DNA of 40,954 nt, taken from the NCBI GenBank assembly GCA_025055265.1, contig JANWXL010000435.1:1-40954 (forward strand). Reading direction: 5' to 3'. A model generated the notes under the pieces. That model did no database searches. It worked only from the letters and a program-made list of their open reading frames with translations, and had not been told where the DNA came from. This document shows positions 454-37,380 of this stretch, piece by piece. Made by a program: the position numbers and the translations under genes. Within the stretch, counting starts at the first letter, position 1, and the number at the start of each line of letters is the position of its first letter. This DNA comes from Roseiflexus sp. Lineage in GTDB: Bacteria; Chloroflexota; Chloroflexia; Chloroflexales; Roseiflexaceae.

Positions 454-2565
454 TCAACGGCAAACGAAGATTGCTATCGAAGGGCGATCACTGGAGGTCG
501 CATTGTGCAGGTGAATGTCCCAGGCGGCAACCACCGTCAACCCTGCCTGGTTCAGGAGCTTGGGCAGATCGACAGAGACCGACGAATGATACGTCTCCTC
601 GCCCTTACCGGAAGGATAGAACAGGATGAGAGGATAGGCGGGATGCTGCGCCTCTTTGAGGCGTGTGCAGACAGCGCGGAACCGTTCCTCGAAGAAGCGC
701 TGCGCTGCTTCGACGCCGCTGTGGCGCGACGGATCGGCGACCAGTTCAGTCGCTTTTGGCGTCGCCGGGGCAGCGAACAGGTCGGGATGGATGGACTCTA
801 ACCCTGGTTGAAGCCAGGCGTAGAAGAAGTCGCTCAGTTCAGCCAGAGGCAGACTGTCAGGGTGCGGCGGCTCGGTGCAGACCAGCCCTCTGGCGGTGGG
901 TGCAACCGTGACGTCAGCCGCGTCCTGTTGCACGCTCTTTCCTTCACCCGCCGGATCGAGCGCCTCCAGAACGCGCGCCATTGCCTCGACACGCTGCATG
1001 AAGCCGCCGGAGGAGTCGCTGAACGGGTTGCCTTCGGCATACTCCCAGTTCATCTGCAACGTGTGGCGCGCCAACGCGGGAATGATCCGCTGCGTGCTGG
1101 CATTCCAGCAACACTGACTCGAAGCGACATCCGCCGTCTTGCTGACCGCCAGCCCCAGATATGTCGCCACCGCATCGGCATACGCCGCCGGATCGCGGTC
1201 GCCGCAGCGCTCCGCATCGAGCGCCGCCTTTGCGCGCACATACCCGATCAGGTCGCTGAGAGTCGTCAGAGCGGCGAGTTGCCGCGAGGTGAAGAGCGAT
1301 GCAACCGTGGTGAACCCGTAGTCCGGCAGGTCTACACAACGCGGGTTGGAGGTCAGCCGCGTATCCGGCGTCCAGGGAGGCTTCGTCTGCAGCGTGATGC
1401 GCCCAAAGGAGATAGACGGCTCAAGATGGATTGGTCCTTCGCCGCGATCAACCACAATCGCCATCAATTCCGCGCTCATCCGATCAGCGACACCGGCAGC
1501 GCGCAGTTCGTCGTGCGATATGCGTCTGCCGCAGAAGGGGCATTGCGCACCCTGCCGGATGACCGTCCCGGCGGGCGGCGATCCTTTGCCGCTCTGAAGG
1601 TCGAAGAGGAGTTGCCCTTCATGGCGCGAATACCGCTCGCCGATGCGCGGCACAACCCAGGTTTCCCGGTCCTTCCAAGAGTCGATCACAAACGAGCGCG
1701 CCAGCGGAACCTCGTTGCTGCAACCGGGGTTTGGGCAGACCAGCGTGCTTGCCCAGATCCAGGCAACAATCGGCGCTTCTCCGCCGCCATACCGCGAAGG
1801 CAGTTCGATCGTCGGGAACAGATGCCCAACCTGGCGTTGCGCTTCGTCGCGCATCCACGCCCCATAGAAGCGCACATCGGCGGCAAGCCCGTGCGCGCCT
1901 CTGGGCGAGTGAGGCGAGAGGCGAGAGGCAAGAGGCGAGAGGAGGAACGAACTCTCGCTCCTCGCACCTCTCCACTTACTGCTCGCTTCCGGGTTGACCG
2001 GCGGCAGACCGGCAAAACGCGGCGGCAGCTCAATCAGCGCCCGGTTCATCAATGCGGCGACCGGGTTGAGATCAGAGGCATACGCCGTGAGTCCCAGGCG
2101 TTGCGCTTCGAGCGGAATGCTGCCGCTGCCAGCGCAAGGATCGTAGACCGGCGGAGGGTTATCGCCAGCCGCAGCACGAACGAGCGCGCGAGCCGTGTTC
2201 AGAATCTGGTCATCGTTCACGCTCTCCGGCTCTGCCAGGCGCTCGATGAACCCCAGCACTTTCTGGCGGCGCTGCTCGCCGGGGGAGAGCGTCTGCCACG
2301 CAGAGTCGGTATTCTGCGGGATTGGCAGGGCATCAATTGCCTGCAATAGCGCTTCGGGCGCGTCCGGCTGATCAGGGTCGTCGATGATCGCGGCAAACAG
2401 TACGGCACGGCACAGTGCGAGCGACCGATGAGGCCACCAGCGGTACAGGGTGTCGGGGAAGCGTAGAAACGCTGCCGCTTCGCGGGACGACGCCACGCCG
2501 ACCGCCTGAGACGGAAAAGCCGCCTCGATGAGTTTTTTGCGCGGCGTTCGGGTGGAGGAAGTCAT
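454..2565 (-). CDS. DUF1156/COG1743-like adenine-specific DNA methylase with degenerate catalytic motif
   Basis: RKKLIEAAFPSQAVG N-terminus, SAM motif VYDPCAGSGSIPLEAQRLG, GLAADVRFYGAWMRDEAQRQVGHLFP; ORF trimmed to ATG at 2565 because the upstream 40 aa translate the tRNA. Confidence 0.82.
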   Translation of the reverse strand: MTSSTRTPRKKLIEAAFPSQAVGVASSREAAAFLRFPDTLYRWWPHRSLALCRAVLFAAIIDDPDQPDAPEALLQAIDALPIPQNTDSAWQTLSPGEQRRQKVLGFIERLAEPESVNDDQILNTARALVRAAAGDNPPPVYDPCAGSGSIPLEAQRLGLTAYASDLNPVAALMNRALIELPPRFAGLPPVNPEASSKWRGARSESSFLLSPLASRLSPHSPRGAHGLAADVRFYGAWMRDEAQRQVGHLFPTIELPSRYGGGEAPIVAWIWASTLVCPNPGCSNEVPLARSFVIDSWKDRETWVVPRIGERYSRHEGQLLFDLQSGKGSPPAGTVIRQGAQCPFCGRRISHDELRAAGVADRMSAELMAIVVDRGEGPIHLEPSISFGRITLQTKPPWTPDTRLTSNPRCVDLPDYGFTTVASLFTSRQLAALTTLSDLIGYVRAKAALDAERCGDRDPAAYADAVATYLGLAVSKTADVASSQCCWNASTQRIIPALARHTLQMNWEYAEGNPFSDSSGGFMQRVEAMARVLEALDPAGEGKSVQQDAADVTVAPTARGLVCTEPPHPDSLPLAELSDFFYAWLQPGLESIHPDLFAAPATPKATELVADPSRHSGVEAAQRFFEERFRAVCTRLKEAQHPAYPLILFYPSGKGEETYHSSVSVDLPKLLNQAGLTVVAAWDIHLHNATSSDRPSIAIFVCR

Positions 2566-12865: not shown

Positions 12866-12874
12866 AGTTCGTTA

Positions 12875-13203
12875 GGGCGCGGCGCGCCGGTTGGGGCAAG
12901 GCTGTCCCGATCAGGTCCAGTTGGGGCGCGGCGCGCCGGTTGGAGCGAGGCTGATCCCGATCAGGTCCAGTTGGGGCGCGGCGCGCCGGTTGAGGCGCCG
13001 CTGCTCCCGATCAGCGGCGGTTGGGGGGTGGTTGATCCCGATCAGGTCTGGTTGGGGCACGGCGCGCCGGTTGAGGCGCCGCCGCTCCCGATCAGCGGCG
13101 GTTGGGGGGTGGTTGATCCCGATCAGGTCTGGTTGGGGCACGGCGCGCCGTGCCCCAACCGCCGTGCCCCAACCGCCGTGCCCCAACTGCCGTGCCCCAA
13201 CTG
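12875..13203. repeat. Tandem repeat block (49/50/81/81 bp units) capped by a 30-bp perfect palindrome and 14-bp tandem units
   Basis: Units start at ~12889, 12938, 12988, 13069; palindrome GGTTGGGGCACGGCGCGCCGTGCCCCAACC 13131-13160; (cgccgtgccccaac)x4 13146-13201. Confidence 0.92.
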
Positions 13204-23833: not shown

Positions 23834-24290
23834 ATGAGAGGCGCGAGGCGCGAGGCGAGGGGTGAGAGGCGCGAGGCGCGAGGCGAGGGGCAAGAGGCGA
23901 GGGGTGAGAGGCGCGAGGCGCGAGGCGCGAGGCACGAGGTGAGAGGCGCGAGGCACGAGGTGAGAGGCGAGGGGTGAGAGGCGCGAGGTGAGAGGCGCGA
24001 GGCGCGAGGTGTGCGGGAGCGGTTCCGGGCATCGCTGTGCCTTTGTGCCTCTGGGTGAGAAATCAGAGGCGCGAGGCGCGAGGCGCAAGGCGAGGGGTGA
24101 GAGGCGCGAGGCGAGAGACGCAAGGCGTGAGGCAGGGGGCACGAGACGCGAGGCGAGAGACGCAAGGCGAGGGGTGAGAGGCGCGAGGCGCGAGGCGCGA
24201 GGTGTGCGGGAGCGGTTCCGGGTATCGCTGTGCCTTTGTGCCTCTGGGTGAGGAATTAGAGGCGCAAGGCACGAGGCGCGAGAGTAGCAC
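23834..24290. repeat. Degenerate 'gaggcgcgag' low-complexity repeat with two ~50-bp embedded copies
   Basis: gtgtgcgggagcggttccggg(c/t)atcgctgtgcctttgtgcctctgggtgag at 24008 and 24201 (193 bp apart). Confidence 0.95.
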
Positions 24291-36884: not shown

Positions 36885-37350
36885 AGGCGTGGCGCCGCCA
36901 CGCCCGCAGATACGGCGGCACCCCGTGGGAAGGCAGGCAAGGCAAGCACGTCGGGGCGTGGCGCCGCCACGCCCACAGATACGGCGGTGCGGCGCCACGA
37001 ACCGGCGGTGCGCCGCCACGCCCGCAGATACGGCGGCACCCTGTGGGAAGGCAGGCGAGGCAAGCACGTGGGGGCATGGCGCTGCCACGCCCACAGATAC
37101 GGCGGTGCGGTGCCATGACATGGCGGTGCAGCGCCACGCCCGCGCCGCCACGCCCACAGATACGGTGGTGCGGCGCCACGAACCCGGCGGCGCGCCGCCA
37201 CGCCCGCAGATACGGCGGCGCCCTGTGGGAAGGCAGGCGAGGCAAGCACGTCGGGGCGTGGCGCTGCCACGCCCACAGATACGGCGGTGCGGCGCCACGA
37301 ACCCGGCGGCGCGCGCCACGCCCGCAGATACGGTGACGCCTGTGGGAAGG
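36885..37350. repeat. ~118-bp composite tandem repeat with gtggcgccgccac palindromes
   Basis: cccgcagatacgg at ~36903, 37021, 37203, 37321; interleaved cccacagatacggcggtg units. Confidence 0.93.
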
Positions 37351-37380
37351 CAAGCGAGGCGAGTGCAGGAGGCAAAGAGC

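Follow-up and report, generated by a model that had tools for sequence, protein, structure and literature searches.

A heptanucleotide repeat tract within an HmaB-like methylase gene of Roseiflexus: an expanded linker that was probably inherited

How does repetitive DNA of a mainly intergenic kind come to lie in frame inside a conserved enzyme? The question is raised by the window, the whole 40,954-nucleotide stretch of Roseiflexus sp. DNA analysed here, in which a minus-strand methylase gene at 454–2565 contains a tract resembling an intergenic repeat on the same contig. The initial annotation read this tract as a 69-bp in-frame insertion of an intergenic repeat, flanked by a 9-bp direct repeat. 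The flanking copies CGCGCCTCT (1894–1902) and CGCACCTCT (1963–1971) are indeed exactly where it placed them, 69 bp apart, and the stretch is in frame. A real and unusual feature had been seen and correctly described, but the interpretation holds only in part, its dating and explanation being wrong. The relevant features are the following.

454–2565, minus strand: orphan HmaB-like DUF1156 DNA-methylase gene, 703 aa (Pfam DUF1156, 1.2e-10; PADLOC HmaB, 2.6e-150)
853–873, minus strand: degenerate catalytic motif IV, EPPHPDS, against DPPYYDN in at least 90% of 30 aligned homologues
1894–1902, minus strand: AGAGGCGCG, codons R-G-A of the conserved (W)RGA.GLA motif, including the unit GAGGCGC
1900–1986, minus strand: variable linker of 29 codons (residues 194–222) between the conserved VNPE and GAHGLAADVR, equal in length in the nearest orthologue
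1911–1942, plus strand: heptanucleotide array (GAGGCGA)4.6 (TRF score 57, 92%); the coding strand gives a LASRLSP-type peptide
1952–1971, plus strand: inverted (CT-strand) heptamer-like arm opposite the GA array; weak hairpin with 14-nt arms, 86% complementary
1963–1971, minus strand: AGAGGTGCG, the second copy, after W198; a heptamer-like unit, target-site duplication not demonstrated
23838–24202, plus strand: intergenic heptamer block (GAGGCGC)51.6 (TRF), holding a 193-bp higher-order repeat at 23873–24279

HmaB is part of the candidate Hma defence system (PMC8565338). The PADLOC HmaB profile PDLC00660 aligns with residues 4–682 of the window protein over positions 4–695 of 967, and the 703-residue protein thus lacks the C-terminal quarter of the profile. 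Whereas the HmaB of Hma systems has DPPY in motif IV, this protein has EPPH, and the nearest orthologue aligns there with ELPHPDS, so that neither carries the HmaB form. No hmaA helicase or hmaC ATPase gene was found among the tested neighbours in either species, the window contig stopping 450 bp past the gene, and a PPK2 gene adjoins the methylase gene in both. Compared with the nearest orthologue, dN/dS is 0.19 outside the linker and saturated inside it. The gene is therefore still under selection, perhaps for something other than methylation.

What kind of DNA is the tract? Its lag-7 autocorrelation is 0.57, compared to 0.31 in shuffles, and TRF finds the same kind of unit in the gene, (GAGGCGA)4.6 at 1911–1942, as in the intergenic block, (GAGGCGC)51.6. 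The piece 1903–1948 has about 100 other matches, which are spread over 38 more contigs, the best of them identical at 31 of 31 bases, with another of 45 bp at 93%. In the real window 31 subwindows match at 26 or more of 32 bases, and in the shuffled window none do. The resemblance to the intergenic block, as initially noted, thus goes beyond base composition, and the possibility that the tract would align by composition only does not hold, since the genomic matches exceed those of shuffles. The heptamer family is present in all six genomes of the genus. Heptamer arrays in general are characteristic of these genomes: the window has 122 per Mb and Roseiflexus G002 (a complete genome, sampled over 400 kb) has 35, while the figure is 43 for other Chloroflexota, 29 for cyanobacteria and 2 for other phyla.

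Heptanucleotide repeats are a known kind of bacterial DNA (PMC6749651, PMC4679880, PMC4692102). Tandem heptanucleotides have been described in cyanobacteria and Xanthomonas, among them the heptanucleotides of Calothrix and G-rich heptamers (PMC4692102), and Chloroflexus aurantiacus has GATAGRA satellites (PMC6749651). They are mostly intergenic, with an intragenic minority in Nostoc/Anabaena (PMC4692102). The present family is similar in having a tandem 7-nt unit in many dispersed and mainly intergenic copies. It differs in the unit itself (GAGGCGA/GAGGCGC), and the methylase tract differs in lying inside a gene of a conserved enzyme family, where orthologues can be compared. Of the 22 period-7/14 arrays in the 400-kb sample from G002, not one is inside a gene, which makes the gene-internal position of the methylase tract exceptional. 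At the sites surveyed in the window genome there was one other convincing gene-internal case; for the remaining gene-internal GA tracts, most of the spanning ORFs have no Pfam match and were dismissed as artefacts of the stop-free repeat.

The age of the tract can be approached by way of linker length. From PPKF to GLA, the window protein has 41 residues, compared to 20–32 (mode 24) in 62 homologues outside Chloroflexota, where W[KRQ]GA is the usual ending; measured against the protein family, this site has indeed been expanded. The nearest orthologue, from an "uncultured Roseiflexus" (G004, the same record as L080), is 77% identical in amino acids, and its linker is also 41 residues long. Between VNPE and GAHGL both genes have 29 codons, with flanks that are 87–88% identical. 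When the two linkers are compared position by position without gaps, 40 of 87 bases are equal, against 26 ± 4 in composition-preserving block shuffles, of which 0–3 in 2000 reach 40. The likeness resides above all in the last (3′) third (17/29, p 0.001), there is nothing above chance in the middle, and the cross-correlation of the two linkers peaks at −14, −7, 0 and 14, that is, at multiples of 7. At 47/87, the linkers nevertheless mismatch more often than the synonymous sites of the gene do (0.39; p 0.003). This in-register similarity, together with the shared ends, indicates that most of the stretch between the "direct repeats" is older than the split of the two species. One ancestral linker with a rewritten core would be the simplest account, and it is probable that the expanded linker was already present in the common ancestor of these two Roseiflexus-like species, its core having been rewritten since while its ends and frame were kept. 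A shared heptamer ancestry would rest on two sequences, by way of their equal length and in-register similarity (p ~0.001), no intermediate orthologue having turned up in the genomes searched.

If a mobile repeat element of 60–70 bp had recently been inserted in the lineage of the window, duplicating 9 bp of its target, this would explain why the linker is shorter family-wide, with W[KR]GA directly before xGLA, and why WRGA and RGA flank the window insert. Such an insertion is nonetheless distinctly unlikely. The initial annotation itself held that linkers of similar length in close and distant homologues would speak against it, and the close one, the G004 orthologue, has a linker of exactly equal length, alike in register; in this only close orthologue the site is filled, and there is no empty site. 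Removing one repeat plus the insert was expected to restore the family sequence, and WRGA does normally abut xGLAADVR, but deletion of the 23 residues leaves 18, fewer than in any of the 62 non-Chloroflexota homologues. Nor are the 9-bp flanks an independent mark: AGAGGYGCG occurs 12 times in the window, nine of them inside the intergenic block, and being a unit of the heptamer family it provides no evidence of target-site duplication. The likeness of "ctctgggcgag" to sequence in that block is real, as GCCTCTGGGYGAG occurs three times in the assembly, always in the window, but it is explained by an ancestral GCCTCT and a degenerate heptamer. As the specific donor, the 24-kb block was rejected: GCCTCTGGGYGAG is made up of ancestral codons and a single degenerate unit, and a different contig has the best match in the genome. 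No genomic copy of the insert exceeds about 46 of 69 bp, and the copies diverge at differing points and share no ends. The insert folds no better than shuffles (DNA fold z = −1.1, not significant), and a hairpin or terminal-inverted-repeat element was rejected on that account. The marks that would define a MITE or an element like those of Rickettsia, namely a target-site duplication, defined ends with terminal inverted repeats or a stable hairpin, and an empty site in a close relative, are thus lacking. Of the suggestion that the repeat family "moves or expands", expansion stands, and moving is not supported.

Could the site instead have been expanded twice? Two independent expansions at one permissive site, equal in length by chance, would be in keeping with the apparently different contents of the two linkers, and other Chloroflexota show that the site is permissive. 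Autocorrelation does not mark the G004 linker as heptameric (p about 0.1), and within its own genome this linker is no recognisable repeat. Against this stand the equality of length to the residue and the significant ungapped likeness, above all in the 3′ third, which make such a coincidence unlikely. It is very improbable that we are dealing with an ordinary drifting low-complexity linker, similar to the repeats only in its purine/pyrimidine composition. The loop is variable across the whole family, but for the core tract this reading is refuted by the 4.6 tandem heptamers at 92% and by the matches elsewhere of 31 of 31 bases, with none in the shuffled window. An assembly artefact can scarcely be credited, even though the metagenome bin is fragmented (604 contigs, 83% complete) and the contig begins with 240 bases of near-perfect palindrome, since the reading frame is unbroken, an orthologue that was assembled independently has a linker of equal length, and six genomes contain the repeat as a genuine feature.

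How might an inherited linker of this kind have arisen and persisted? It would have been seeded by heptamers, tolerant of length, and renewed through slippage or template switching. The conserved R-G-A codons contain a GAGGCGC that could have provided the seed for the array. The core would then have been rewritten by replication slippage, and probably also by switches of template from the GA strand to its inverse; that the GA array has an inverted CT arm after it would fit such switching, although the hairpin is not significant. Each 7-bp copy moves the frame by one, and three copies close it again, so that arrays grown by multiples of three would be the ones to survive. The unit (GAGGCGA)n is stop-free in every frame of both strands, giving EARGERR on one and LASRLSP on the other, and the same open seven-codon cycle results in every frame of a strand. 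The AlphaFold model of the 703-aa protein is moderate overall (mean 64.6), with low confidence in the insert loop (pLDDT <50 at residues 205–218), which lies between helices 192–205 and 225–249. With a frame closed by three heptamers, a stop-free unit and a disordered, length-variable loop between two helices, expansion by multiples of three would be survivable. That the tract can be tolerated as a linker, as the initial annotation had it, agrees with its being in frame, in a loop predicted to be disordered, and surrounded by sequence under purifying selection. The peptide itself presumably has no function.

A second gene provides independent support for tolerated heptamer linkers. A PMT_2 glycosyltransferase on another contig of the window genome (C124; L027 480–2984) has (GAGGCRA)n and (CCTTCAA)n in frame in a loop, the loop peptide being RQEARGERQEARGKRREVSGERREARGERREA followed by the (CCTTCAA)n-encoded NIEPSTFNLQPSTFN. 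G003 has the identical insert, those of G004, G001 and G002 are shorter, and G005 reads N there; all five genomes of the genus with a readable site have inherited the tract, which ranges from ~54 residues down to a dozen. This is an inherited in-frame heptamer tract of changing length. Dispersed repeats tolerated in frame at permissive sites of protein genes are also found in the Rickettsia palindromic elements, according to the review PMC10969869 on the work of Ogata (2000, 2002). Those elements are ~150 bp long and palindromic, with defined ends, whereas the methylase tract is a short tandem array that has neither ends of this kind nor a significant hairpin. Both heptanucleotide repeats and in-frame protein repeats are known in bacteria, and the methylase tract is a new instance.

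Inserts of other kinds occur in the hma genes of Chloroflexota. In G010, hmaB has a hairpin peptide, TAEGAEEPRGSYRQNPLRSSTSSAV, twice and the hmaA helicase has one that is related to it; hmaB of G029 has hairpins encoding RFEIFDLRLEDKKSKISNPKSQI and two copies of TAEDAEERREAG[DH]LPLPLRSSAASAV. The strong Hma hairpins are 68–77 bp long and occur in two lineages, also in a neighbouring hmaA; the two hairpin linker copies tested had DNA fold z values of −5.3 and −5.8.

L219, 3990–4063, 8056–8129 and 8893–8966: in-frame strong hairpins in hmaA/hmaB
L220, 6383–6450, 7186–7262 and 7345–7421: in-frame strong hairpins in hmaA/hmaB
L036/L222, 5850–6900 (G001:C142): Y1 (IS200-like) transposase domain in the hmaB frame (PF01797, 4e-10), between two tandem-repeat tracts
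L223, 6265–6618 (G000:C556): complete 23S-rRNA-IVP (four-helix) gene nested in another frame (PF05635, 1.3e-37)

One of the hairpin families has 97 matches genome-wide in G026, yet in G029 it is found on no contig but that of hma, and in G010 hardly on any other. Of the second family (RFEIF type), most copies in G029 likewise lie on this contig. Such a distribution suggests that the operon was acquired from a repeat-rich donor, with contig misbinning also possible. Local proliferation of hairpins within the hma operons was set aside, transfer being simpler. In a GTDB survey, none of these hairpins was found in 68,130 residues of methylase ORFs; they are therefore a trait of these genomes or lineages, and the idea that they are a general feature of the methylase family was dropped.

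The window genome also has an intact-looking hmaA-GmrSD-hmaB cluster, on contig C556, whose end falls within hmaB. In this hmaB, the nested IVP gene lies at the same linker as the heptamer tract, and the hmaB frame is open throughout (linker 161 aa); no inverted repeats were found around the IVP gene. A second in-frame hairpin (SEERGVRSEERGDQEASSSLTPHSSSLTSY) is present in the same hmaB at L223 7061–7152. Tentatively, Chloroflexota HmaB may be a recurrent acceptor of unrelated in-frame repeats and small genes, either because hairpin- or ssDNA-type elements prefer certain sites or because selection acts on the loops of a defence protein.

Why do such tracts matter? The methylase tract is a clean example of non-coding, microsatellite-like DNA becoming bacterial protein sequence. 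Heptamers are frame-neutral (7 = 1 mod 3, stop-free in any frame), so that expansion within a gene need not destroy it. The wider Hma pattern would make it testable whether defence proteins have hypervariable loops or repeat elements have site preferences. Repeat peptides such as LASRLSP, SSLTPHSSS, AEDAEER...PLRSSASSAV and KSKISNPKSQI mislead domain annotation, and they could flag horizontal transfer from repeat-rich donors.

Some further repeats were seen in passing. In G002 (L234, G002:C1:5550200-5550514), a heptamer-like tract, SHLQPSHLQPS, joins an IVP gene in frame to the next ORF, which by eye resembles a DegT-type aminotransferase. The palindrome at positions 1–240 of the window, at the contig start, has arms of ~90 bp and a C/G-rich centre, with a further copy of the arm at ~270–340, and is possibly an assembly end artefact. 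Long tandem repeats with periods of 50 and 81 are found at 12871–13201 of the window, and others with periods of 118 and 182 lie at 36886–37360, inside a long open frame.
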